Source: Acidobacteriota bacterium (GTDB lineage: Bacteria; Acidobacteriota; Blastocatellia; RBC074). From it: a stretch of 64,000 nucleotides of DNA. The stretch covers positions 124,001 to 188,000 of the forward strand of contig JACPYM010000088.1 of assembly GCA_016196035.1 (NCBI GenBank), given 5' to 3'. The notes under the pieces are model-generated. The model worked only from the letters and a program-made list of their open reading frames with translations, was not told the DNA's origin and did no database searches. The translations under genes and the position numbers were made by a program. Positions 6,310 through 63,521 of the stretch are shown here, one piece after another (position 1 is the first letter of the stretch; each line of letters starts with the position of its first letter).

Positions 6310-6679
6310 CTGTCACCCGTCCGGCTTGGCTAAAAATTGACAGCCGTCATTGCTTGGCATAGAGTGCGCCCGTTTTAATGTATGCGTTTTTTTGGGTAGG
6401 GCTGATGGGTCGTGTTCACCGTTAGCCGGGTGACGATGCATTGGCAATGAAACCCGCACACCGGCCTTGACCAGCCGGAGCGCAGTGCGGGCAGTTATCA
6501 GCTTTATTACGTGCAAGCAGCAAACCGGCGAGTGCTTGCCCTTCCCTTCTGGCTGTTTCACTGAAACGGCCACCAGCCTGGGCCGTCAAAAGAGCCGTTT
6601 GGCCCAGCGACATAAGCGTTGTAACTCAGTGGTTCGCGGGCGAACCAGTCAGGCGATCCGTCTCAACAAAGGAGTTCTG

Positions 6680-9600
6680 ATGCACACCTCACAGGCGAAA
6701 GAACACGCGCAAGGCAAGGCCAAACAGGCAGGGCGGTTGTCCGTCCTGGCGCTCTGCTTACTCGCGGGGCTGGGTTGCGCCGTGTGGCTGGGCCAGGCGT
6801 TGCGCGGTGCCGCGGCCAATTTCCAGATGATCAGAGTGGCGCCCGACAAATTGCTGGTCGGGACGCTCGGCACACCGTATCAAGATGTATTGCGCGCCAG
6901 TGGCGGCGGCTCGTCCGTTTACACCTTTACGCTGGACAACGAAGTGCGCGATTGTTTACCGGCGGGGTTGAGCCTGGAAAACGGCACGCCCGATGACGCA
7001 GCCGCCGTGCGCGGGACGCCGCAGGAAGCGGGCGTTTTCACCTTCACGGTCAAAGTCAGCAGCCCGCCCGCCGTCCCCACGCGCCAGCATTTCACCATCC
7101 TCATCCGCGCGCGCGCCGCTTGCCCGGTGCTGGGTTTGGTCGAAGACGTTCCTTGCAATCCGCGCCTGACGCTCGGCGTGTTTTACAGCGAAACCTTCAA
7201 CGTGGCCGGCGTGGGCACAGCGCCCTATCAGTTCGACGTAGACGCGCGCGTCGGCGAACGCCTGCCCAGAGGAATGGAACTGGTGCCCGGCCCGCGCGCC
7301 GATCAAGTCACGTTGCGCGGCACGCCCGAAGAAACAGGGTTTTTCACCTTTCACATCCGCGTCGAAGACGCCAACGGCTGTTATGGCGTGATCTGTCACG
7401 ACTATCCGATTCGCAACAACCCGGAATGCCTGCTGAACCTGTTCCCCGACAATCTGGACGAGGTAGACAGCATTCAAAACGAACCGCTCGCGCTCAGCTT
7501 CACGCCGAACAACGGCGCCGCGCCGTATGCGTTCAGCTTCGACAATCGTCCGGGCGAAAGTGTGCCGCCGGGCTTGCTGCTGGCGTCCAACGCCACTGCC
7601 GAACGCGCGCTGCTCAGCGGCGCGCCGCAAGAGGCGGGAACGTTCTCTTTCACCTTGCGCGCCAAAGACAAAAACGGTTGCGAGATCACGCAGAGTTACA
7701 CGCTGGCCGTGCGTTCCAAAATTCCCGCGAACCAGCCGCCGGTATGCCCCGCCGTCACGCTGGCGCCGCAACTGTTAGCCAATGGCACACTCAAACTCAA
7801 CGCGCCGTTCAATCAAACGTTCACGGCCAGCGGCGGAGCTGCGCCTTACACCTTCACCGTTGAAGCCATGCCGCCGGGCCTGCTGGTGAATGCGTCAACC
7901 AATCCCAACGAGCAACTCGCGCTCGGTGGCGCGCCAACACAGACGGGCAGTTGGGAATTTCGCGTCAAAGCGACTGACAAGAATGGCTGCGAGGGCAACC
8001 GCACTTATGTGCTGAACGTGCATGACCCTGATTGCCCGGTCATCCTTTTACCGCGCAGCTTGCCCGGCGGCGTGGCCGGAGAAACATACGCCGCGCAAAC
8101 GATCCAGCCACAACCCGCCAATCGCGCGTACAACCTGACCATCAGCAGCGGCGCGTTGCCGTCCGGTCTGATGCTCGCGGGCAATGTCTTGCAAGGGACG
8201 CCGACACTGGCAGGCACGTTCAAATTCACGCTCACGGCGCAAAGCGGCACGTGCAGCGGTGCGCGGGAATACACCGTGTTGATCGGCGGGCCGTTCGTGT
8301 GCCCGCCGAATCTGACGCAGACGCTGGCGGCGGGCGCGACTGAGGCGGTCGTGAGTTATCCGCTGCCCACGGCCCCGCCCGGCAATACCGTCACTTGCAC
8401 ACCGGCTGCGGGTTCGACGTTCAAACGCGGCGCGACGACGGTGACCTGCGTGAGCGCGGGCGCAGCCGCGACAATGATGTGCAGCTTCACGGTGACGCTC
8501 ACGACTTGCACCATCGGCTGTCCGGCGGCTGTGACGGCGACGTTGCCCGCCGGGCAATGCGCAATGGCGGTGACTTACGCCGCGCCTGTGTTGGAGGGCG
8601 CGTGCGGCCCGGCGACGTGCACGCCCGCGTCAGGTTCGAGTTTTGCGGCGGGCGTAAAGACGGTGACATGCACTGCGCCGGATGGCGCGGGCGGCAACAG
8701 CGCGTGCAGCTTCACGGTGACGGTCAACGCTACCCAAATACCCCCGCCCACATGTCCGGCGAATATCACCCGCGCGGCGGATCAGAATCAGTGTACGGCC
8801 ATCGTGAATTACGCGCCGCCGGTTGTGCCCGCCGACTGTGTTGGCACGACGGTCAGTTGCGTTCCGGCTGCTGGCACGGCCTTTCCGTTGGGCGTCACGA
8901 CGGTGACGTGCACGGCGACGGATGCGGCGCAAAACAAATCCACCTGCGCTTTCACGGTCACAATTAACGACGCGCAAGCGCCCACGCTGGTTTGCCCCGA
9001 CAACCTCGTCAAAGCGGCGGATCAAAACCAATGCGCGACGGCGGTGACATACACCAACGCGACGGCCAGCGATAATTGCGCGGGCGTGGGCACGCCGGTT
9101 TGCACGCCGCCCTCCGGTGCGACCTTCACGGTCGGCCAGACGACGGTGATGTGCAGCGTGCGCGATGCCGCGCAGAATTTGGCGACGTGCAGCTTCACCG
9201 TCACGGTCAACGACACCCAAGCGCCCGTCATCACTGCGTGCACGCCAGAGCAGCGCGTCGTGGCGAACGGCCCGGCCACGGTCAGCTATCCGCTGCCCAG
9301 CGTGACCGACAATTGCGCCAACCCAACCGTGAGTTGCGTTCCGGCGTCCGGCACGAGCTTCCCGCCGGGCGTCAGGACGGTCACCTGCACGGCGACCGAT
9401 GCGGGCAACAACACAGCGGCGTGCAGCTTTACGGTGACGGTGACGGGTTGCGGATTCGTGCCGACCCCGCCCCCGCCCGTGACGGCCAACGCCGCCGCCG
9501 GCAGGTGCGATGCGGTGGTCGCTTACGCCACGCCGGCGACGAATGGCGCGTGCGGCGTGGTGACGTGCGCGCCTGCTGCGGGTGCGAGCTTCCCCGTGGG

Positions 9601-12600
9601 TATCACGACGGTGAATTGCAGCACGACAGATGCGAACGGCGTCACGAGTTCGACCAGCTTCACGGTGACGGTCAATGACACGCAAGCGCCGGTGCTTACC
9701 AACCAATGCCCGGACGACCTGCGCGTAGTTTCCGCTACGCCCACAACGGTTAGTTATCCGCTGCCAGCGGCCACCGACAATTGCGGCACGCCAACGGTAA
9801 GTTGCGTGCCGGCCAGCGGCGCGACGTTCGCGCTGGGGCTGACGACGGTGACTTGCACGGCGACTGACGCGGCGCGGAATGCGTCCAGTTGCACCTTCCG
9901 CGTTGGCGTGACGCCGTGCCCGCAACTCTCAAGCGACCCGGTTACAGTCGAGGCCGCGGCGGGACAGTGCGCGGCAGTGGTCAGCAGCTATCCGCTCCCG
10001 GCTGACAGCGCGGATTGTGGGACAGTGACTTGTGTGCCGCCCGCCGGTGCGACTTTCGCAGTGGGCGTGCGGACGGTGACTTGCAGTTCCACCGACAGCA
10101 GAGGCGTGCCCAACGCGAGCAGCTTCACCGTGACGGTCAAGGACGCACAACCGCCACGGCTGACCTGCCCGCCGAATCTGAGCGTGAAAGCGGCCACGCC
10201 CAGCGCGGTTAGTTATGACTTGCCGCTGGTCACGGATAATTGCCCCGGTGTGGGCCAGCCGGTTTGCGAGCCTGCGTCCGGTTCGATTTTCCCGGTGGGC
10301 GCGACCACGGTGATTTGCCGGGCGCGCGATGCGACGAACAATGAAGGCCAATGCAGCTTCACGGTGACGGTGGCCCCAGAACCCTGCCGTCTCATCTGTC
10401 CCGCGCCGGTAAGCACGGATGCCGCGCCCGACCAATGCACGGCACAGATCAACTATCCTCCGCCCGCCACCGAAGGCACGTGCGGCGCAGTGACGTGCAC
10501 GCCGCCATCCGGCTCGTCGTTCGCGGTGGGCGTAACGACGGTGACTTGCCGCGAAGCCAGCGGGGCCGTTTGCAGCTTTGCGGTAACGGTCAATGACAAA
10601 CAAGCGCCGGTCATCGCTAATTGCGCACTACCCAATCTGACGCGCGCCAATGATCCGAATCAGTGCCAAGCCGTGGTGAATTACGCGCTGCCGCCCGTGA
10701 CCGACAACTGTCCCGGCGCGCTGGCCGTTTGCACACCGGCTCCCGGCACGGCCTTTCCGGTGGGCGTAACGACCGTGACTTGCCGCGCCCGTGATGTGGC
10801 GGGGAATACTTCGCCCTCAACTTGCAGCTTCACGGTGACGGTCAACGACACCCAAGCGCCCCCGCCGCCCGTCTGCTCCGCCAACGTGACGCGCGGCAAC
10901 GATCCGAATCAGTGTCAGGCCGTCGTGAATTACACGCTGCCCGCTGTGACGGACAACTGCCCCGGCGCAGTGGCCGTTTGCACTCCAGCCCCCGGCACGG
11001 CCTTCCCCGTGGGCGTGACGACGGTGAATTGCCTCGCCCGTGATGCAGCCGGCAACAGTTCGCCAGCGTGCAGCTTCACGGTGACGGTCAACGACACCCA
11101 GGTGCCGGTGTTGGCGCAACCGGCTGACCTGCGGCAATCCGCCGAGCTGAATCAATGCCAGGCCGTCGTGAATTACGCGCCGCCGGCCGCGACGGAGAAT
11201 TGTCCGGGCACGGTAACTGTCAGTTGCACGCCCGCGCCGGGCACGGCTTTCCCGGTGGGCGTGACGACGGTGACGTGCACCGCGCGTGATGCCGCCGGGA
11301 ATACTTCAGCACCGCGCAGCTTTACGGTGACGGTCAACGATACGCAAGCGCCGGTCATAGACTGCCGCCAACTAGCCAATCTGACGCGAACCAACGATTC
11401 GAATCAGTGCCAGGCCGTTGTGAATTACGCGCTGCCCACCGTGACGGACAACTGTCCCGGCGCAGTGGCCGTTTGCACACCGGCCCCAGGCACAGCCTTT
11501 CCCGTGGGCGTGACGACCGTGACGTGCAGCGCCCGTGATGCGGCGGGGAATACTTCGCCCGCGCCAGCGTGCAGTTTCACCGTGACGGTCAACGATACCC
11601 AAGCGCCGGTCATCACCAATTGCCCGCTGCCCAACGTGACGCGCGCCAACGATCCGAATCAATGCCAGGCCGTCGTGAATTACGCGCCGCCGGCCGCGAC
11701 GGACAATTGTCCGGGCACGCTAACTGTCAGTTGCACGCCCGCGCCGGGCACGGCTTTTTCAGTGGGCATGACGACGGTGAATTGCACCGCGCGTGATGCC
11801 GCCGGGAATGCCTCGTCTTCAACTTGCAGTTTCACCGTGACGGTCAACGACACCCAAGCGCCGGTGTTGGCGCAGAAGGCGGACTTGAGTCAACCCGCCG
11901 ACTTGAATCAATGCCAGGCGGTCGTGAACTACGCGCCGCCGATCGTGACGGACAATTGTCCGGGCACGCTTGTCGTCAGTTGCACGCCCGCGCCGGGCAC
12001 GGCTTTCCCAGTGGGCGTGCGGACGGTGACTTGCACCGCGCGTGATGCCGCAGGAAATGTTTCAGATCCGCGCAGCTTCAATGTGACAGTCAACGACACG
12101 CAAAAGCCCACGATGATTTGCCCGGACAGCCTTAGCGTGCTGGCCACCGTGCCCACGGCGGTCAGCTTCCCGCTGCCTACGGTCAGCGATAATTGCGCTG
12201 GTGTGCGCGCGCCGGTGTGTGATCCCGCCTCCGGCTCCACATTTGCGGTGGGCACGACGACGGTGACGTGCATGGTGGCCGACGCGGCGGGCAACACAGA
12301 AAGTTGTAGTTTCAAGGTGACGGTCGGCCCATGCCCGCTGGCTGTAACGGGAGCGCCGCTGAATTTCGCCGTACCGATTACGGCGGGGCTGACGCCGAAC
12401 ACGCAAGCCACCAGCCAGGTGCTGACGCTCAACAATGCGAATTGCGGCACAGTCAGCTTTGGCCTCGCGCTACAACGCAACGACAGCAATACACGCTTGA
12501 CGGACAAAAACGATGGCCGCGCCCTGCTCATTGCCGCCAACGGCCAGCGCAGTCTCGATCCCGCCAGCCGGCGGCCTCTCTATGTCAAGCTGGTGGGGGC

Positions 12601-13363
12601 AGAGACGCTGGTGAATCTGTGCGACCCCGCCCAGGCCAGCGGGACATGCGACAGCTTCACGCTGGCGGCGGGCGCGTCGTTGAGCTTGCGCGTATTTTTT
12701 GATCCGCTGATCCCGGCGCGCGCCAGCAGCACGGGCAATCTGACGGCGGCGCAAGTGCTGCCGCTCGATTTGTCTTCCCAACTGCTGCTCAAACCGCCTG
12801 CCGGCAGCCCGTTGCCGAATAACCAACCGCTTTCCACCATCACGGCCCGGCTCGCGCCGCAATTTCGGTTGGTGCATCCGTGCGATCCGACGCGCGACCC
12901 GGCGCAAAACCCGGTGGTAACGCTGACAAGAGAGGGCGGCGGCACCGTGATTGCCGTCACCACCACAATCTACGATCCGGGCCGCGCCTTGCAACGTGTC
13001 CGCTACGAGTTACTGGAAGGCCCCACAGCCACCGTGCCGGTGCTAACGTATGAGGCGAGCACAGCACTGACGGATGTGATCAACGCTACGCCGTTGCACC
13101 TTGGACAGACATTCGCATTTATCCAACGGTTCGGGCCCGTCGATCCCAGAACAGAATTCCACGTGCGGGTCACGTTGAATGGCGACGCGAACCTCTCGAC
13201 CGTTTCAGGCGAGACCGGTTGCCCAGCCAGTTTCCAGTCAGGACAGCCGGGGCAGCCGGAACGGCCCGAAGACCCTGCGCCACTGATATTGCCGGACGTG
13301 GAACTCGCGCCCCTCACCCGCGCGCCGCGCCCGCCCGCAAACAATTTAAGGAGACGCCGATGA
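6680..13363 (+). CDS. Giant exported HYR-repeat protein
   Basis: A protein of 2227 residues, probably exported or surface-displayed. A basic head and hydrophobic helix (about residues 17-40) act as signal or anchor. Residues 50-540 hold about five putative-Ig modules with the pattern LPxGLxL...GTPxxxGxFxF. Residues about 540-1890 hold about 17 HYR modules, each near 80 residues with the pattern DTQAPVI...VSYxLPxxTDNC...PASGTxFxxGxTTVTCTAxDAAGN...SFTVTV and paired Cys. The last 340 residues form a separate beta-rich region. HYR domains are Ig-like and linked to adhesion. The ATG at 6680 has AAAGGAG just upstream; the frame opens at 6467 but that extension has no ribosome site. It overlaps the next gene by four bases and lies downstream of the Tad pilus genes. 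Confidence 0.85.
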   Translation: MHTSQAKEHAQGKAKQAGRLSVLALCLLAGLGCAVWLGQALRGAAANFQMIRVAPDKLLVGTLGTPYQDVLRASGGGSSVYTFTLDNEVRDCLPAGLSLENGTPDDAAAVRGTPQEAGVFTFTVKVSSPPAVPTRQHFTILIRARAACPVLGLVEDVPCNPRLTLGVFYSETFNVAGVGTAPYQFDVDARVGERLPRGMELVPGPRADQVTLRGTPEETGFFTFHIRVEDANGCYGVICHDYPIRNNPECLLNLFPDNLDEVDSIQNEPLALSFTPNNGAAPYAFSFDNRPGESVPPGLLLASNATAERALLSGAPQEAGTFSFTLRAKDKNGCEITQSYTLAVRSKIPANQPPVCPAVTLAPQLLANGTLKLNAPFNQTFTASGGAAPYTFTVEAMPPGLLVNASTNPNEQLALGGAPTQTGSWEFRVKATDKNGCEGNRTYVLNVHDPDCPVILLPRSLPGGVAGETYAAQTIQPQPANRAYNLTISSGALPSGLMLAGNVLQGTPTLAGTFKFTLTAQSGTCSGAREYTVLIGGPFVCPPNLTQTLAAGATEAVVSYPLPTAPPGNTVTCTPAAGSTFKRGATTVTCVSAGAAATMMCSFTVTLTTCTIGCPAAVTATLPAGQCAMAVTYAAPVLEGACGPATCTPASGSSFAAGVKTVTCTAPDGAGGNSACSFTVTVNATQIPPPTCPANITRAADQNQCTAIVNYAPPVVPADCVGTTVSCVPAAGTAFPLGVTTVTCTATDAAQNKSTCAFTVTINDAQAPTLVCPDNLVKAADQNQCATAVTYTNATASDNCAGVGTPVCTPPSGATFTVGQTTVMCSVRDAAQNLATCSFTVTVNDTQAPVITACTPEQRVVANGPATVSYPLPSVTDNCANPTVSCVPASGTSFPPGVRTVTCTATDAGNNTAACSFTVTVTGCGFVPTPPPPVTANAAAGRCDAVVAYATPATNGACGVVTCAPAAGASFPVGITTVNCSTTDANGVTSSTSFTVTVNDTQAPVLTNQCPDDLRVVSATPTTVSYPLPAATDNCGTPTVSCVPASGATFALGLTTVTCTATDAARNASSCTFRVGVTPCPQLSSDPVTVEAAAGQCAAVVSSYPLPADSADCGTVTCVPPAGATFAVGVRTVTCSSTDSRGVPNASSFTVTVKDAQPPRLTCPPNLSVKAATPSAVSYDLPLVTDNCPGVGQPVCEPASGSIFPVGATTVICRARDATNNEGQCSFTVTVAPEPCRLICPAPVSTDAAPDQCTAQINYPPPATEGTCGAVTCTPPSGSSFAVGVTTVTCREASGAVCSFAVTVNDKQAPVIANCALPNLTRANDPNQCQAVVNYALPPVTDNCPGALAVCTPAPGTAFPVGVTTVTCRARDVAGNTSPSTCSFTVTVNDTQAPPPPVCSANVTRGNDPNQCQAVVNYTLPAVTDNCPGAVAVCTPAPGTAFPVGVTTVNCLARDAAGNSSPACSFTVTVNDTQVPVLAQPADLRQSAELNQCQAVVNYAPPAATENCPGTVTVSCTPAPGTAFPVGVTTVTCTARDAAGNTSAPRSFTVTVNDTQAPVIDCRQLANLTRTNDSNQCQAVVNYALPTVTDNCPGAVAVCTPAPGTAFPVGVTTVTCSARDAAGNTSPAPACSFTVTVNDTQAPVITNCPLPNVTRANDPNQCQAVVNYAPPAATDNCPGTLTVSCTPAPGTAFSVGMTTVNCTARDAAGNASSSTCSFTVTVNDTQAPVLAQKADLSQPADLNQCQAVVNYAPPIVTDNCPGTLVVSCTPAPGTAFPVGVRTVTCTARDAAGNVSDPRSFNVTVNDTQKPTMICPDSLSVLATVPTAVSFPLPTVSDNCAGVRAPVCDPASGSTFAVGTTTVTCMVADAAGNTESCSFKVTVGPCPLAVTGAPLNFAVPITAGLTPNTQATSQVLTLNNANCGTVSFGLALQRNDSNTRLTDKNDGRALLIAANGQRSLDPASRRPLYVKLVGAETLVNLCDPAQASGTCDSFTLAAGASLSLRVFFDPLIPARASSTGNLTAAQVLPLDLSSQLLLKPPAGSPLPNNQPLSTITARLAPQFRLVHPCDPTRDPAQNPVVTLTREGGGTVIAVTTTIYDPGRALQRVRYELLEGPTATVPVLTYEASTALTDVINATPLHLGQTFAFIQRFGPVDPRTEFHVRVTLNGDANLSTVSGETGCPASFQSGQPGQPERPEDPAPLILPDVELAPLTRAPRPPANNLRRRR
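10606..12110 (+). repeat. Recently expanded HYR tandem block (coding)
   Basis: Six successive HYR modules (about residues 1310-1810 of the giant protein) are very alike in DNA as well as protein. The phrases AATCAGTGCCAGGCCGT and GGCACGGCCTTTCC recur with about 250-base spacing. The earlier modules are more divergent. This points to recent expansion by unequal recombination. The block is a likely site of assembly collapse and of length variation between strains. Confidence 0.8.
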
Positions 13364-14040: not shown

Positions 14041-14449
14041 TGGCCGTGACGACAGGCACGGCGACTTGGCAGACTACGGCACAGCTTAGGCACTGTTCAA
14101 AAATAACTTGATCATTTGAGCCAGGCAGCGCGGCGAGGACTGGGACGCATTGTTCATTTGTCATTGTTGATTTGTCATTTGTCATTGCCCGACAGCGCAT
14201 TCCGCAATGACAAATGAACAATGAACGTAACTACTCAGCCCCAAGGGGGCGCAATATAATAGCCCGGTGCAACGCACCGGGTCAGCAGATGGATGGTTTC
14301 CAAGCCCCAACGGGGCGCAATAGTTATTGCGCCCCGTTGGGGCTTACCTGATCTGATGTCCTGCTCCCAGGGCGTTGCCCTGGGCTTCTTTACTTCGCCC
14401 CGTTGGGGCTGAGCAGTTGCCAATGAACAACTTATTTTTGAACAAAGCC
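14041..14449. other. Gene-free stretch of stacked hairpins
   Basis: Between the convergent Ig-like and nSTAND genes. It contains a heptamer inverted pair (14150-14187 with 14205-14226) and then a chain of short palindromes from about 14240 to 14420: AGCCCCAAGGGGGCGCAAT, CCCGGTGCAACGCACCGGG, AGCCCCAACGGGGCGCAAT with its inverted partner, CCCAGGGCGTTGCCCTGGG and GCCCCGTTGGGGCT. No frame here looks coding. The hairpins may end transcription from both sides. Confidence 0.75.
14150..14226. repeat. Heptamer inverted array
   Basis: The left arm runs TTGTTCA, TTTGTCA, TTGTTGA, TTTGTCA, TTTGTCA, a clear 7-base period. The right arm (14205-14226) is the reverse complement of the same series and can fold back on it. 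The sequence is unrelated to the other heptamer loci, but the period is the same. Confidence 0.75.
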
Positions 14450-17188
14450 TTAGTTCTTTCTCTCCGCACTTGTAGGCAACGCGAGCTTGGCTTTGGCGGC
14501 GTCCAGGCCTTGGCGTACCTCGCGGGCGCGCGGATGCTCATTGCCATAGACGGCTTCATAAATGGGAATGGCTTCGGTATACAGCGTCACGGCGTCGGCA
14601 TACTTTCCCAGCGTGAAGTAAAGCGTGGCGAGATTGTTTTTGTCACGCGCCGTTTTGATATTGCCCGGCCCCAGCAGCCGCTGGTGAATGTCGAGCGCCT
14701 GTTTCAACAGCGGCTCGGCCTGTTCGGGCCGTTGTTGCTGAAAATAGAACAGGCCTTGATTCAGATAGATTGTCGCCAGACTGGTATAAAGCGTGTCATA
14801 AGTCCTTAACCGTTCATCACTGAGCGGGCCTGGCCCAATCTTCGCTTCCAATAACTGGCGCGCCTGGGTGAAATTGGCGGCGGCCTGTGTGGGCTTGTCC
14901 CAGAGCAGATACAGCGTCGCCAAATCGCTCAGGTTGATCGCGCATTGCGGATGATCGGCACCCAGGCCACGCTGATTGATGTCGCGGGCTTGCAGCAGCA
15001 GTCGCTCGGCTTCGGGATAATTTTTTTGCTGCTGAAACAGCTTCGCCTGTCCGCTGAGGTTGGCCGCGACCTCGATGTTGTCGGGGCCGAAGTTTTTTTC
15101 GAGCAGCGCGCGCGCCTGCTCGAAGCGCGGCGCGGCGTCTGCAAACTTGCTCTGCGCGCTGTAAACCACACCCAGCTTGTTGAGCACGCGCGCCACATAG
15201 GGGTGTTCGGGCAGCGTCTGTTGCAATTTCTGCAAAGCGTTTTGATACGACGCTTCGGCCTGGAGGTAATCCTGCAACCGGTAATAGCTGTCACCGAGAC
15301 TGGTGAGCGCGACGCCTTCGCCCAGCGCATCGCCGCTTTGCACAAAGAACTGACGCGCGTCTTCAAAACGGCCCGCCGGATCGTCGCCTCCAAACATCAA
15401 CTCGGTCAGGAGCGGTGTGAGCTGGCTGTTGAGCCGGTCAGAAGCCGCGCTTTTTTCGGCCAGCTTGGTTTGCCGCAGCGTTTCCCGGCGTTGCAGATAA
15501 CTATAAATCGCCGCCACCGTGGCGATCACAAACGCCACCGTCAGAATCGCGGCGAACACGCGCGCGCGTTTTAGCTCGCGCTGGCGTTGCGCTTCTTTGT
15601 CGGCGGCGGCGCGGCGCTTTTGCTCCGCCTGTGCCGCGCGCTCAGCCTGACTGTCCGTCAACAGCTTTAACACGCCCGCGAAATCGTGGTGATACCGCAC
15701 GGCCCAGGCGGCGGATGGCTGATTATCCGTTTGCCATTGCAGGGCCGCGTCCAAATCCACCCCGCTCAAAACTTCGGCTTTGCCCGCCGCGCGCCGTTGC
15801 GCGACATCGGCCAAGCGGCGATAGGTCGCGGCAGCTTCGGCCTCTTCGTTGACCCAGTTCCGCAAACGCTGCCAGACGCGCATCAGGCTTTCGTGCGAGA
15901 TGTCAATGCGCGTCTCGGCCTGCAATCCGGGCCGATCCTCGCGCGGCGGCATCAGAAAGGAGCGGCCCGGCGCGCGCAAGGTTTCGATGACGGTGACGAC
16001 GCCCGGCAAGCTGGCCTGCGCCACGGCGCACAGCGTTTGCAATTCGACCGGACGGCGAATCTCGCGGTTGTCCTCGCCTTTTTCGGTCAGGCACTGAAAG
16101 ACCTTTTTGGCGAATTGCTGATGGCGTTCGTCGAGTTCGGCAAAGGCTTCGTCCGCGTGTTTTGAAAGTGCGTTTGCCAACCCACCAACGGCTTCGTAAT
16201 GCGGCAAATCAATGGAATGCGGAATGCGGAGTGCGGAATGCGGAATGGTCTTGGCTTCCGCGTCAGTTTCGGCGGCGACAGTTGGAGTGTTCGAATCGCG
16301 AGATTCCGCATTCCGCATTCCGCACTCCGCATTCCAATAGTCCCAAGTGCGCATCAGCGCATGTTGCAGGATCGGCAATTGATCCTGCCGGTCGCCGATG
16401 TCGTTGAGCAGCAGATTGACCAGCCGCGTAGTGATCTGTCCATTGCAGAGCGCGATGGGGCCTTCGATCACGTCGCGCAATTGGTCGCGGGTCAGGCGCG
16501 GGATCAGGTATTGGCTTTCGTTGATCGCTTCGGGCAAGTCCCAGAACTGGGCGCAATCGCCGAGGAAGTCGGAACGCATTGTCAGCATCACGTATAGATG
16601 CTGTTCAAAATTGCCCTCGGCATTGGGCCGGACGGCTTCGAGCAGCAATTTGACGAAGGCCGCCGCGTCGTCATCGTAGGTTTGATTGTTGGCCCGGCGC
16701 GCTTCGCGGGCGTAGCGGAAGAGTTCCTCGAACTGATCCACCACGACGAGCAGGTTTTTGGTTTGATCGCCGGGCAGCATGTTCTGCTGCCCGGTTTCGA
16801 CTAAGCCACGGCTGCCGCGCCGCAACATGGCCTCGGTCACAGCGGTTTGAATTTGGTTGTGTTCGGGCTGCGCCGGCCCGAAGACTTTGGGATCGTTGAG
16901 CGCGCGCGCCAGATTGCCGAGCGGATCATCGCCGGGCCGCATGACCGCGATGCGCCAATTCGAACCGGCCCCCGGCATCATCCCGCTACGCAAGGCGGGC
17001 AACAGTCCGGCAAACACGAGCGAAGATTTGCCGCTGCCCGACGTGCCGACCACACCCAAAAAGCGTTTGGCCGACAGCTTGGCGATCATCTTTTCGACCT
17101 GGCCGTCGCGTCCGAAAAAGAGCTGGCTCTCTTCGTACTTGAACGGGCGCAGACCGGGGAATGGATGCGCGGGCAGAAACGAGGTCAT
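14450..17188 (-). CDS. nSTAND1-type NTPase with C-terminal TPR repeats
   Basis: A protein of 912 residues. The N-terminus reads PFPGLRPFKYEE..LFFGRD, the usual lead into an nSTAND1 domain, then Walker A GTSGSGKSS (48-56). The NTPase and winged-helix region run to about residue 470. A predicted membrane helix lies near 547-567. The C-terminal 300 residues are TPR repeats (ALGEGVALTSLGDSYYRLQDYLQAEASYQNAL and similar). STAND ATPases typically sense a trigger with their repeat domain and oligomerise. The start overlaps the stop of the TIR gene upstream by four bases, so the proteins are made together. Around residues 285-325 is a low-complexity insert encoded by a heptamer hairpin (16214-16336). 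I infer a TIR/STAND immune or signalling role. Confidence 0.85.
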   Translation of the reverse strand: MTSFLPAHPFPGLRPFKYEESQLFFGRDGQVEKMIAKLSAKRFLGVVGTSGSGKSSLVFAGLLPALRSGMMPGAGSNWRIAVMRPGDDPLGNLARALNDPKVFGPAQPEHNQIQTAVTEAMLRRGSRGLVETGQQNMLPGDQTKNLLVVVDQFEELFRYAREARRANNQTYDDDAAAFVKLLLEAVRPNAEGNFEQHLYVMLTMRSDFLGDCAQFWDLPEAINESQYLIPRLTRDQLRDVIEGPIALCNGQITTRLVNLLLNDIGDRQDQLPILQHALMRTWDYWNAECGMRNAESRDSNTPTVAAETDAEAKTIPHSALRIPHSIDLPHYEAVGGLANALSKHADEAFAELDERHQQFAKKVFQCLTEKGEDNREIRRPVELQTLCAVAQASLPGVVTVIETLRAPGRSFLMPPREDRPGLQAETRIDISHESLMRVWQRLRNWVNEEAEAAATYRRLADVAQRRAAGKAEVLSGVDLDAALQWQTDNQPSAAWAVRYHHDFAGVLKLLTDSQAERAAQAEQKRRAAADKEAQRQRELKRARVFAAILTVAFVIATVAAIYSYLQRRETLRQTKLAEKSAASDRLNSQLTPLLTELMFGGDDPAGRFEDARQFFVQSGDALGEGVALTSLGDSYYRLQDYLQAEASYQNALQKLQQTLPEHPYVARVLNKLGVVYSAQSKFADAAPRFEQARALLEKNFGPDNIEVAANLSGQAKLFQQQKNYPEAERLLLQARDINQRGLGADHPQCAINLSDLATLYLLWDKPTQAAANFTQARQLLEAKIGPGPLSDERLRTYDTLYTSLATIYLNQGLFYFQQQRPEQAEPLLKQALDIHQRLLGPGNIKTARDKNNLATLYFTLGKYADAVTLYTEAIPIYEAVYGNEHPRAREVRQGLDAAKAKLALPTSAERKN
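16214..16336. repeat. Heptamer inverted array inside the nSTAND gene
   Basis: GGAATGC-type heptamers at 16214-16248 are matched by their reverse complement at 16303-16336. The whole insert lies in frame within the gene on the - strand and is translated as a Cys/Asn/Arg-rich and then a His/Ser/Pro-rich peptide (ECGMRNAES ... IPHSALRIPHS). The surrounding STAND sequence continues on both sides. Confidence 0.85.
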
Positions 17189-18777
17189 CGGCCCTCCGTC
17201 GCGGCGCGAATGCGTTGCACAAAAGGCTCAATGATTTCCGGTGTGAAGGGCGCATAATTTTTCAGCACCAGCGGATCGCTGGAATTGAGCAAATCCTTTT
17301 CCATGGTCTCGGCCTCGCCGATGTAAATCGCCTTGGCCGCCAGCGGTTTGGTGCGCCCGGTCGCGCTGAGCTTTTGAATCACGCGCCAGATGTTGCCGAA
17401 CCATTCCTCATCGGCGGCGCCGTAATACAGCAACACCGCATCGCTGGATTGCAGCAGTTGTTTGTACCTTTCCGGCGGCTCCTGGCTTTGCAGCGGTAAT
17501 TTCACTTTGAAGGCTTTCTCAAGTTTGAGGTAGCTGAACAGCGGCCCGACCTGGGCGAAATCCTGCTCGTGGCAGAACAGGCAAACCGTGACGGGGTCGC
17601 CCGCCAGTTCGGCCCAAATGTCTTTGGGCGGCGGTTTGAGCTTTTTGTGAATCTCGGTTTTCAGGTCTTCGAGTTTGACTTGCAGGAACTCAGGCGAGGT
17701 GTTTTTGACCTGGGTGACGAAACGCTCTTGCTGACCGCCAGCTTTGAGCGTCAAGCCTGGCGGCAACCAGACCAGTTGCGTCAGCTTCTTGGCTTGGGCC
17801 AGTGCGGCGGCCAGATCGTATTGCACGTGCGGCATTGACCGTTCCTCCACATCCACATCCAAAATGCCGCCGTATTTCTCGCCCAGTAAATGCACCGCGA
17901 GTTGGGCCTGTTCCAGGTACTGCTGCACGGCGGTGTTGAATTCTTCCACGGCAGAGGGCAACGGCTGATCGGGCAGCACGCGAAACTTGAATTGCTGTAA
18001 CTCGCTCTTGATCAGCTTGTGGGCTTCGACTTGGTCTGGGGCTGGTTCGGCTAGATAAACGGCAGGCATCTCCGTGGTAATCGCCGCGCTGGCGCTGTTG
18101 GGCAATACGCTTGGGGGCGGCGGCGGCGCGGGCGCGGGCATTGGATTGGGCGTGGGCGCAAGAACGGGCACGGGCGCGGGTATCAGCGGAAGCGGCGGCG
18201 CAGGCGCAGGCAATGTGCCCGAACCGCGCAAGCGGCGGAACAGCAGATGCAGGTCTTCGCACAGGGCATTGACCTTGTCCACGAAATCCGGAATGTCCTT
18301 TGTCTTGAGTTCCGGCTGCAAGTCAATATGCCTGCCGCTGCGTTCTTCCTCGTAGTAAAACCGGTGTTCGAGCACATCCTTGATGCTGGCGAGCAAGGCC
18401 TGTCCATCCAGTTGAAAGCTGCCCCCTTCAATCGAAGTCTTGACGGCTTTGAGCAAACGTCCCCCGCCCGTGCGTTTTTGAAATTCGCGCAGTTCCCACA
18501 GGCACCACTCGGCTTTGATATAACGCGGCGAGATGACGGCGAGCATCACGGCGCTCTGTTCCAGCGCCCCGGCCAGTTGCTCAGAAAAGGTCTCGAACCC
18601 ATTGAGTTGCGGATCGCGAAAGATCGTGATCTCCGCGCCCAGTTTGACGCGCAAGGTTTTGCGCAACAGGTCTTCAAAAAAATCCACCCAGCCAGGCACG
18701 CCCTTGATCAGCGGATCGTTGTCAATGTGTGCGTAGCTGACGAAAATGTCGTGCTCATAGCCCGGTATGTAACCCAT
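17185..18777 (-). CDS. TIR-domain protein with two further TIR-like modules
   Basis: A protein of 530 residues. Residues 8-165 form a TIR domain: HDIFVSYAHID at the start and SPRYIKAEWCLWEL, where Glu 95 sits at the position of the catalytic NADase Glu of TIR enzymes. A Pro/Ala-rich linker spans about 198-240. Residues about 248-360 (VYLAEPAPDQ ... VHLLGEKYGG ... LVWLPPGL) resemble the TIR-like/DUF4062 fold. Residues about 395-500 may be a third such module (VCLFCHEQD ... SDAVLLYYG). It is the first gene of the pair with the nSTAND ATPase. ATGGAGG lies before the ATG. TIR proteins next to STAND ATPases are typical of abortive-infection modules, but a signalling role is also possible. Confidence 0.85.
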   Translation of the reverse strand: MGYIPGYEHDIFVSYAHIDNDPLIKGVPGWVDFFEDLLRKTLRVKLGAEITIFRDPQLNGFETFSEQLAGALEQSAVMLAVISPRYIKAEWCLWELREFQKRTGGGRLLKAVKTSIEGGSFQLDGQALLASIKDVLEHRFYYEEERSGRHIDLQPELKTKDIPDFVDKVNALCEDLHLLFRRLRGSGTLPAPAPPLPLIPAPVPVLAPTPNPMPAPAPPPPPSVLPNSASAAITTEMPAVYLAEPAPDQVEAHKLIKSELQQFKFRVLPDQPLPSAVEEFNTAVQQYLEQAQLAVHLLGEKYGGILDVDVEERSMPHVQYDLAAALAQAKKLTQLVWLPPGLTLKAGGQQERFVTQVKNTSPEFLQVKLEDLKTEIHKKLKPPPKDIWAELAGDPVTVCLFCHEQDFAQVGPLFSYLKLEKAFKVKLPLQSQEPPERYKQLLQSSDAVLLYYGAADEEWFGNIWRVIQKLSATGRTKPLAAKAIYIGEAETMEKDLLNSSDPLVLKNYAPFTPEIIEPFVQRIRAATEGR

Positions 18778-61140: not shown

Positions 61141-62748
61141 TCATTGAAGAGCATTCGTGATGGCCGTCCGAAACCAGTTGGTTTGTACGAGCCGTTTGGG
61201 GGGTAGCTTTAATTTACTCAGGAGTTGCCGGTTGAAGCGTGTTTTCATATCGAAATATGGGTAAAAGCTTTCCAGGTCGTCGCTGCGTAGCGCCTGCACA
61301 ATAGCCTGGGTAGCATTTTCGTCCCGCTTGATGTTTTCGTCATTCAACACGGAGTAGCCGCGGCGCGCGCCTTCCAAGCCGGTCAAGATGTAATCGCGCT
61401 GTTCGTTCTTTTGCCGCCCGATCTCAGCGCGGTAGGTTTCGGCATCAAAATCCGGGACGGCTTCCTGTAAGTTGTCAGGATGATAAAGATAGTTCTCAAA
61501 AGCGTAATAACCAAGTACGCGCAAATTGGGGAAATGCTGACGTAGCCTGGCAATCTCTCCGTCAGTCAAATAATCGCGATCCATCAACCCGTAGTATGCA
61601 GGGTTCTGTTTCACGTTCAAATAGACTTGCCGTTTGTCTTGCACGCCAATGAACAATTTGTCGGGCAGGTTAAGCAGGTTGTAGTACTCATCATTCTTGT
61701 TTTCACAGAGGATCAGTTGCTTGCCCTGAAAGACGCGCAGCAACGTTTCTTTAGGGACGGCAATCTCGTAAACCTCGAGTGACTCTTTTGGTTGCGGAAT
61801 GATGGTTTGCGGTAGATCGAAGTCGAATTGATCGAAGTCGAGGAGCGCGGCGTGCGCGGCTTCGCGGGCATACTGAATGAAGCCGAGCGAATGGCTGGCC
61901 GTCCAAAGCTGACAGTTATCGGGAATCCAATGTTCAGTGATCTCTTTCAGAAGCGCATATTGCAGGGAAGTATTGAGATGGGCATCAAGCTCGTCTATAA
62001 AGTAAATTGTATCGCGGTATAGGTTATTACGATTGAATAGATTGAAAAGAATGTTGACGATCTCTTTTTCACCACTGCTAAGCAAGTTGTAGTGAACGTC
62101 GGCTTCGCCTTTGCGGAAACGAATGTCGGCGGGCTTTCCTTCCAGGGGTGGAACCAGCCGGTGAAGCACCAGGGAAGTTGGCGGCTTTGCCCCAAAGACC
62201 CTTTCGAGGGCCTGGTTGATGGGATTGATGTAGCGAGTCTTTAATTCGTCAGAGTCGAAGCGCCCACCGTTGAACACTTCTTTGAGAATCTTGCCAGTCA
62301 CGACGTCCAGGTCATTTTCAAATCGCTGATCAAGCTCAATGTAAAGACGAGGACGATCCCGGTCATGCTCGATCTCGATAGAAGTTTGAGGGCCAGTTCG
62401 GGTCAGACGAGGAACCTGTCTTAATGCGCTACGTCCATAAAAAGCAGTCTTATCAACTGCTGATCCCTGGTTGTTGGCACTCCTCTTAGCGACATATCCA
62501 TCGTTAAACTCTACGGAAACTTCAGACGCATCTTGAGCAACTTTGCTGTAATAGGCCGGGTCGCCAGAGGAATTCCTATCCTTGCTATAACTAGAGACCC
62601 ACTCAAAGGCATCAAAAACACAACTCTTTCCACTACCGTTCGCCCCAATCATCAACACCAACTTCGGTGCCGGTTGTGCAATTGACAGGTCAATTGTCAG
62701 ATCAGTAAAGCGTTTGAAGTTTTGCAGTCGCAGCTTGTTGATAAACAT
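61141..62748 (-). CDS. AAA ATPase-DUF4435 fusion, PARIS-like
   Basis: A protein of 535 residues with two parts. Residues 1-320 are an SMC/ABC-type AAA ATPase: Walker A GANGSGKS (35-42), signature LSSGEKEI (about 221), Walker B IYFIDELDAH (about 250) and the H-loop ASHS (about 285). Residues about 344-535 match the TOPRIM-like DUF4435 fold: LILCENKNDEYY (acidic start), VQDKRQV, GLMDRDYL (DxD) and YYAFENYLYHP. In the PARIS anti-phage system the ATPase AriA holds the DUF4435 nuclease AriB until triggered; fused forms are known. The ATG at 62748 is 11 bases after the GT2 stop. It could alternatively be another OLD-like AAA-TOPRIM nuclease. Confidence 0.75.
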   Translation of the reverse strand: MFINKLRLQNFKRFTDLTIDLSIAQPAPKLVLMIGANGSGKSCVFDAFEWVSSYSKDRNSSGDPAYYSKVAQDASEVSVEFNDGYVAKRSANNQGSAVDKTAFYGRSALRQVPRLTRTGPQTSIEIEHDRDRPRLYIELDQRFENDLDVVTGKILKEVFNGGRFDSDELKTRYINPINQALERVFGAKPPTSLVLHRLVPPLEGKPADIRFRKGEADVHYNLLSSGEKEIVNILFNLFNRNNLYRDTIYFIDELDAHLNTSLQYALLKEITEHWIPDNCQLWTASHSLGFIQYAREAAHAALLDFDQFDFDLPQTIIPQPKESLEVYEIAVPKETLLRVFQGKQLILCENKNDEYYNLLNLPDKLFIGVQDKRQVYLNVKQNPAYYGLMDRDYLTDGEIARLRQHFPNLRVLGYYAFENYLYHPDNLQEAVPDFDAETYRAEIGRQKNEQRDYILTGLEGARRGYSVLNDENIKRDENATQAIVQALRSDDLESFYPYFDMKTRFNRQLLSKLKLPPKRLVQTNWFRTAITNALQ

Positions 62749-62759
62749 AGCGCAGTCTT

Positions 62760-63521
62760 TCAATTCTTGTTTGAATTGTGCTCCAACTCCCAGATTTTGG
62801 CGTATTTCAGGAACACACTGTAGGCCGTGAACATTGCAATAATCAATCCCTGCACGCCATCGCGAAAGCCTTGTTTGAGCAGGTACGTGCGCACAAAGGC
62901 CGCCACCGGCAACACAAACAACTCCGCCATCCGCGCGCGCTTGCCGCTCTTGTGCAAGTGTTCCGCCGCGAGCGTGGTGTAGGTGTCGAGCACACGATGA
63001 TGGTCGCTCAGGTCGCGTTTGGTGTAATGCAGCAACTCGCCCGGCAAAATTTCAACGCGCCCGCGCACGTGGGCGACTTCGTGTGGCGCAACACCGTCCC
63101 AATAACTGGCGGCCTTGCGATAAAGCCGCATCTGGTAATCGGGATACCAGCCCGAATGCTTGATCCACCGACCCAAATAAAACGTGCGCCGCGCGATCTT
63201 GAAGCCATCCGGCAACGCCGTCGGGTCTTGTTGGCGCAAGGCTTCGGTAGCGGCGCACAACTCCGGCGTCACTCGTTCATCGGCGTCGAGCCAAAGTATC
63301 CAATCGCCCGTTGTCAGCGAATCGGAATACAGGTGCTTGTCTTTGTAACCGCGAAATTCGCGCTGAAAAATCTTGTCGGTATACCGGCGCGCAATTTCAA
63401 CTGTATTGTCGGTCGAAGCCGAGTCGCAGACGACAAGTTCGTCCGCCCAGGCGACCGATTCGCAGGCGGCGGCGATGTTATCGGCTTCGTTATAGACGTT
63501 GATTTTGACGGAGATTTTCAA
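62760..63521 (-). CDS. WaaE/KdtX-like family 2 glycosyltransferase
   Basis: A protein of 253 residues. The GT2 pattern is [19 protein letters not shown] at the start, [18 protein letters not shown] and [11 protein letters not shown] (DxD). The central [18 protein letters not shown] and [21 protein letters not shown] segments are typical of the lipopolysaccharide core transferase group WaaE/KdtX. The only sensible start is a TTG at 63521, giving MKISVKINV, nine bases after the Uma2 stop; the longer frame has no ribosome site. It probably adds a sugar to LPS or another surface glycan. Confidence 0.8.

Follow-up and report, generated by a model that had tools for sequence, protein, structure and literature searches.

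Function of an overlapping TIR and STAND gene pair

What might a three-module TIR protein do together with a membrane-anchored STAND ATPase whose gene overlaps its own by four bases? The question is raised by positions 14450-18777 of a 64,000-nucleotide stretch of DNA from an Acidobacteriota bacterium (GenBank assembly GCA_016196035.1, contig JACPYM010000088.1, positions 124,001 to 188,000), referred to here as the window. The initial annotation, made from the sequence alone, had proposed the two genes as a candidate immune module and had called their combination unusual. Both open reading frames and their 4-base overlap were recovered as described; the genes are located on the minus strand, with the TIR gene (gene 1) upstream and the nSTAND gene (gene 2) downstream (Table 1).

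The TIR-nSTAND1 pair is a fixed unit of a multi-phylum family

Comparison with relatives showed that the pairing is not unusual but the fixed form of a family that extends over many phyla. Homologous loci were fetched by an alignment of TIR proteins alone (fetch motif FISYAHxD[ND]); a scan of genome contigs with the single protein as query gave no match, and the loci were retrieved with the alignment query. The next gene downstream encoded an nSTAND1 protein in 79 of the 80 fetched loci, L133 being the exception, a rate that applies to these nearer relatives, which were the best of 321 candidates. Nine named phyla were represented among the homologues: Bacteroidota, Pseudomonadota, Cyanobacteriota, Verrucomicrobiota, Acidobacteriota, Nitrospirota, Thermodesulfobacteriota, Fibrobacterota, and Actinomycetota. 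Sediminibacterium and Mucilaginibacter polytrichastri are among the carriers that have been cultivated. In genomes of the phylum Acidobacteriota, some contigs of which are also among the 80 records, 29 of 31 loci were paired, and one of the two exceptions was cut by a contig end.

The relatives kept the order TIR to nSTAND1, with gaps mostly between -23 and +30 bp and of exactly -4 bp in 30 of the 78 measurable cases. Because order and near-zero spacing are both retained, the 4-bp overlap in the window is not due to chance, and the proposed tight coupling of the two genes is supported. TIR and STAND proteins also diverged in parallel (Mantel r 0.84, a value reached by 0 of 999 permutations and including shared phylogeny). 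The genome of the window harbors a second intact pair, in which a TIR gene is followed, likewise with a 4-bp overlap, by a gene for an nSTAND1-WD40-GH19 protein; the two strongest nSTAND1 domains of this genome are both TIR-linked. A third nSTAND1 copy (G000:C59:9323-9892) contains three internal stops and is decayed.

Table 1. Positions of the gene pair, its domains and residues, and associated repeats in the window
Feature	Position	Strand	Basis
Gene 1, three-module TIR protein, 530 aa	17185..18777	minus	ORF (open reading frame); Pfam TIR_2/DUF4062; homologues in nine named phyla
Module 1 (aa 5-184), TIR domain, probably catalytic	18226..18765	minus	AlphaFold model, RUN1 match
Glu95 codon, NADase-position glutamate	18493..18495	minus	E in 100/100 sequences with this column
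Module 2 (aa 236-382), DUF4062-like, probable pseudo-TIR	17632..18072	minus	Pfam, structural matches, family profile
Gln319 codon, at catalytic-Glu position of DUF4062	17821..17823	minus	Q in 97/101, E in 2
Module 3 (aa 391-530), TIR/Rossmann-like, invariant Asp406	17188..17607	minus	AlphaFold model, structural matches
4-bp start/stop overlap of genes 1 and 2	17185..17188	minus	Sequence; equal spacing in many relatives
Gene 2, nSTAND1-transmembrane-TPR protein, 912 aa	14450..17188	minus	ORF, Pfam
nSTAND1 NTPase domain (aa 9-465), probably cytoplasmic	15794..17164	minus	PF20703, E 5.5e-95
Walker A GTSGSGKSS (aa 48-56)	17021..17047	minus	Invariant columns in 27 partners
Dispersed palindromic repeat, in-frame insertion in gene 2 (about aa 285-326)	16213..16336	minus	34-nt inverted arms
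Transmembrane segment (aa 544-562)	15503..15559	minus	Hydropathy 2.52
TPR region (aa 627-886), putative sensor	14531..15310	minus	TPR_12 3.7e-46, TPR_NPHP3-like 6e-30
Two Acido-Lenti-1 matches (RF01687), inverted pair behind operon	14237-14281 and 14366-14410	minus and plus	

Module 1 of the TIR protein is a probable enzyme

A TIR domain with a glutamate at the NADase position had been assigned to the first protein, and this assignment was supported. Pfam TIR_2 matched aa 11-105 above its cut-off (E 4.7e-10). An AlphaFold model built from 30 relatives (mean predicted local distance difference test score, pLDDT, 86.6) gave module 1 a TIR fold, for which the best structural match was the RUN1 TIR bound to NAD (Z 15.2, 146 residues aligned); structurally, module 1 is closest to the TIRs of plant TIR-NLRs. 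PADLOC contained no model matching the TIR protein.

Residue conservation was scored on an alignment of 101 proteins from the nine phyla, 100 of which have the Glu95 column. As shown in Table 1, Glu95, located within the motif WCLWELREF, was conserved without exception, and the same was true of Ser14, Trp30, and Asp55. The invariance of Glu95 is no effect of selection, because this residue lies outside the fetch motif. Judged from sequence and model together, module 1 is a probable enzyme of the TIR NADase type.

Modules 2 and 3 are degenerate

Two further TIR-like modules had been proposed for the same protein. The AlphaFold models indeed revealed TIR- or DNPH1-like folds, but both modules appear catalytically dead. 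Z scores of 12.7 and 12.4 were obtained for module 2 against DNPH1 and a CMP N-glycosidase, relatives of the TIR fold that cleave N-glycosidic bonds. The Pfam family DUF4062 was hit at aa 241-323 (E 3.2e-4) with 21.3 bits, below the curated cut-off of 24.7, and a profile of the TIR family recovered genuine DUF4062 domains in related genomes with an E value of 6e-12. Gln319 aligned exactly with the conserved Glu of the S-x-T-x-x-E motif in these genuine domains. DUF4062 is reported to be a TIR-like NADase that cannot defend against phage without its Glu (preprint, May 2026, PMC13174449). Because Gln occupies the catalytic position on which this defence depends, module 2 is best read as a pseudo-NADase, which may still bind nucleotide. 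Glu was present at this position in only two members, L094 and L120, and these are possibly doubly active enzymes.

Module 3, modelled alone, reached a pLDDT of 92.9. Its top match was the RPS4/RRS1 TIR (Z 12.7), and DNPH1 (Z 11.5), receiver domains, and small GTPases followed within about 2 Z units. As other Rossmann-like folds score so close behind, "TIR-like" is for this module a statement on fold only. Asp406 was found in all 101 proteins, and the same alignment contained no conserved Glu at the TIR position. With Glu95 invariant and the Glu missing from modules 2 and 3, the protein probably comprises one enzyme and two pseudo-modules. The possibility of three active TIRs was rejected, since modules 2 and 3 lack the catalytic Glu.

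The same residues bear on the idea that the TIR protein has no enzymatic role and acts as a scaffold, whose three TIR-like modules assemble and bring further factors to the STAND protein. Assembly is the mode of action of many TIRs, and the absence of the Glu from two of the three modules would fit such a role, but the invariance of Glu95, Asp55, Ser14, and Trp30 across nine phyla is better explained by catalysis. A pure scaffold is considered very improbable.

The nSTAND protein combines a conserved core with exchangeable C-termini

The second protein had been described as a membrane-anchored nSTAND ATPase with a TPR sensor, and all three parts were identified, a single transmembrane segment preceding the TPR region (Table 1). 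A Walker B-like motif, VVVDQFEE, was found at aa 148-155, and GxSGSGKSSL and DQFE were invariant among 27 STAND partners. PADLOC produced weak, low-scoring matches only.

One strong hydrophobic segment followed the nSTAND1 domain in 79 of 84 unique partners. Lysine plus arginine residues were more numerous on the N-terminal than on the C-terminal side of this segment in 73 partners, with the reverse in 2. The region beyond it varied widely and consisted of TPR, WD40, GH19 (L004 and L060), M74 murein endopeptidase (L062), CAP (L139), CHASE2 (L091), FGE-sulfatase, or RDD domains, or an extra TIR_2 (confined to L073 and L091, where it follows nSTAND1), and little or nothing was left after the membrane segment in L097, L106, and L108. 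This variation suggests that the C-terminus is an exchangeable sensor on one conserved core, a receptor-like modularity. The GH19 domain of L004, of the chitinase/lysozyme type, forms the end of the nSTAND1-WD40 paralogue in the genome of the window (L004:7863-12071); GH19 in L060 and M74 in L062 occupy the same place.

GH19, M74, CAP, and CHASE2 domains usually act outside the cytoplasm. These C-terminal domains and the positive-inside bias together argue that the nSTAND1 ATPase is probably cytoplasmic and the sensor probably extracytoplasmic. The alternative is an intracellular abortive-infection system, in which the membrane segment would merely tether the STAND protein, cytosolic TPR or WD40 repeats would sense a phage protein, and the TIR would deplete NAD+ as in TIR-STAND-TPR fusions. 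The bias of 73 versus 2 and the GH19, M74, CAP, and CHASE2 domains speak against it, as does the absence of the pair from the plasmids, phages, and viral contigs searched. It is consistent, on the other hand, with TPR and WD40 as typical cytosolic sensors and with the short-tailed proteins of L097, L106, and L108, and single-gene TIR-STAND-TPR proteins do protect from phage (PMC9122126). On balance, we regard an intracellular system of this kind as unlikely, although by no means negligible.

Third genes point to a nucleotide signal in some lineages

In 17 Bacteroidota loci, a gene for a protein with two predicted transmembrane segments, a TrkA_N domain, and an RyR-like domain (2TM-TrkA_N-RyR-like) was located directly upstream of the TIR gene, at distances of -17 to +32 bp (e.g. 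L128:6044-7978), and no copy was present elsewhere in the fetched DNA. Two N-terminal hydrophobic segments were seen in most full-length copies. In no genome did the RyR match reach the Pfam cut-off (E 6e-5 to 0.33), yet it covered the same model positions in 15 of 15 searched. A SLATT/DUF4231 gene adjoined four loci according to a profile search and several according to Pfam.

Both families have been tied to ADP-ribose signals. According to a 2026 preprint (PMC13232231), phage RyR-domain proteins cleave or bind cyclic ADP-ribose (cADPR) immune signals; for SLATT, a role as a membrane effector regulated by ADP-ribose derivatives has been predicted (PMC9503650). By this analogy, the neighbours point to a nucleotide product of the TIR in the lineages that have them. 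As the TIR gene stands beside that for the RyR-like membrane protein in Bacteroidota, the long-standing question of a direct action of ADP-ribose signals on RyR domains can be tested in bacteria. The 870-aa genes downstream of the pair in Bacteroidota were rejected as a fourth component because they encode TonB-dependent receptors.

A proposed receptor that hands its signal to a TIR enzyme

These results invoke a two-gene module in which a membrane STAND receptor with an outside sensor activates a TIR enzyme acting on NAD+, most likely for defence; we give this reading an even chance of being correct. The STAND protein would be anchored by its one transmembrane helix, with the nSTAND1 ATPase in the cytoplasm and the variable C-terminus beyond the inner membrane. 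Sensing of a ligand or of an envelope disturbance there would lead to ATP-dependent oligomerisation of nSTAND1, and the clustered STAND proteins would gather the soluble three-module TIR protein, of which modules 2 and 3 may function in docking, assembly, or ligand binding. Gathering would switch on the NADase of module 1, so that NAD+ is either depleted by cleavage or converted to an ADP-ribose signal. In some lineages, the adjoining 2TM-TrkA_N-RyR-like or SLATT membrane proteins may respond to this signal. The likeliest purpose would be abortive infection or another response to invaders.

A more far-reaching version can be put forward tentatively, although we hold it to be rather doubtful. 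The family might represent an undescribed multi-phylum class of bacterial transmembrane innate receptors, in which an outside sensor acts through an inner STAND ATPase on a TIR synthase that is soluble, combining a Toll-like layout with the engine of an NLR, and in Bacteroidota the resulting cADPR would gate the adjoining 2TM-TrkA_N-RyR-like channel. If true, this would be a possible bacterial precedent for the control of RyR domains by cADPR.

Several observations weigh against an outward-looking defence receptor. TPR and WD40 repeats occur more commonly in the cytosol. In the window protein, the charges flanking the membrane segment are equal (+3/+3), so that the topology is deduced from the family as a whole. 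Neither the Acidobacteriota loci nor the surroundings of the window pair showed a third gene that would encode a signal receiver. The neighbours of this pair are housekeeping or Tad-pilus genes, with MpaB-like oxygenase, RDD, NFACT, and MacB-type genes at its flanks, and no defence gene was detected near it except an AAA ATPase gene about 42 kb away. No match to the pair was obtained in plasmids, phages, or IMG/VR viral contigs, and PADLOC on 93 neighbours returned few, mostly generic matches (DNA polymerase A, helicases, HerA) without a defence-island signal. Finally, the tree is partly clustered by phylum (17 label changes; minimum 8, shuffled mean 42), a lower mobility than defence genes typically show.

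The survey for defence neighbours that had been suggested thus gave a divided answer: in the window itself the surroundings do not indicate defence, whereas SLATT, TrkA_N-RyR-like, and TPR-S genes are among the neighbours in relatives and the pair has a patchy distribution, with 21 of the 162 genomes in the class carrying it. From this distribution and by analogy to related families (PMC9122126, PMC8195603), the role is probably an immune one. Among other neighbours, a transposase was noted at L141 and a NUDIX protein at L126.

The chromosomal, partly vertical distribution and the housekeeping surroundings would also suit a receptor for envelope stress, contact, or kin recognition, which senses wall damage or neighbours and regulates behaviour through an NAD+-derived signal rather than providing phage immunity. 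Wall-hydrolase and CAP domains at the STAND C-termini agree with this, as do the TonB-dependent receptor genes found directly downstream of the nSTAND gene in several Bacteroidota loci. A TIR enzyme could be lethal, however, and both the patchy presence and the combination of TIR with STAND are typical of conflict systems; such a receptor appears improbable.

Repeats and other features of the window

The palindromic repeat within gene 2 consists of GGAATGCGG units and adds about 40 aa (NAECGMRNAE...IPHSALRIPHS) to the nSTAND protein. It has 21 near-copies genome-wide, compared with 0 for the control, and lies outside the proposed mechanism. For Acido-Lenti-1, 118 matches were counted in the genome. 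Because many of these form -/+ inverted pairs about 130 bp apart, like the pair behind the operon, they are read as mobile repeats arranged in the manner of REPINs and not as an obvious small RNA gene. The distant AAA ATPase gene (61141-62763, minus strand) is possibly a separate defence gene and is the probable source of the AriA/PtuA/AbiLi-like PADLOC matches. At 6467-13363 (plus strand), the window encodes a very long repeat protein of 2298 aa, in which 13 HYR stretches and Ig-like domains were recognised.

Comparison with known systems

The pair exhibits the fold, sequence, and Glu of the TIR family PF13676 as well as the Walker A and B motifs and the C-terminal superstructure-forming sensor of the nSTAND1 family PF20703. 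The pair could not be assigned to any named family, and a literature search yielded no paper describing a TIR/nSTAND1 pair, although an earlier listing in comparative surveys is possible; the pair looks like an undescribed form among STAND-TIR systems.

Thoeris likewise places a TIR beside a partner gene and may share an NAD-derived signal. It was rejected because no ThsA-type SIR2-SLOG or macro effector is adjacent and PADLOC gave no Thoeris match for the pair. The FxSxx-COOH system, with its TIR-like FxsC and a separate TPR/NTPase protein, resembles the pair, but membership was rejected on NCBIfam scores far below the cut-offs (FxsC_Nterm, 35.4 versus 130 bits; FxSxx_TPR, 55.3 versus 300 bits). 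Swarozyc/DUF4062 TIR-like NADases and the eukaryotic proteins TEP1, NWD1, and NPHP3 (PMC13174449) have a DUF4062-NTPase-WD40/TPR architecture that parallels the pair with its DUF4062-like module 2 and its TPR_NPHP3-matching TPR region. Here, by contrast, 97 of 101 proteins carry Gln in place of the DUF4062 Glu, catalysis is assigned to the canonical TIR, two genes are involved, and the STAND protein is membrane-bound; as module 2 lacks the catalytic Glu, membership in Swarozyc was rejected.

nSTAND1 conflict systems with separate effector genes that share adaptors (PMC8195603, PMC10907252) similarly combine nSTAND1 and FGE-type C-termini with effectors in trans. They differ from the pair in that the latter has one TIR partner family, a conserved transmembrane segment, and a sensor that apparently lies outside; no shared EAD/bDLD adaptor was recognised in it by Pfam.

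The anti-phage TIR-STAND-TPR proteins that P4 hotspots encode in a single gene (PMC9122126) and the plant TIR-NLRs RUN1 and RPP1 likewise unite a TIR enzyme and a STAND ATPase with a superhelical or repeat sensor that drives TIR activation. A fused TIR-STAND protein was rejected for the present family, as the genes are separate in the window and in nearly all relatives; two extra degenerate TIR modules and an nSTAND1-type STAND protein that crosses the membrane further set it apart. The STAND/NLR-like sensors known from bacteria are generally taken to respond to invaders within the cell, whereas this family suggests an outward-looking STAND protein that hands its signal to a separate TIR enzyme. 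The pair thereby offers a concrete, assayable unit with exchangeable sensors in at least nine phyla.
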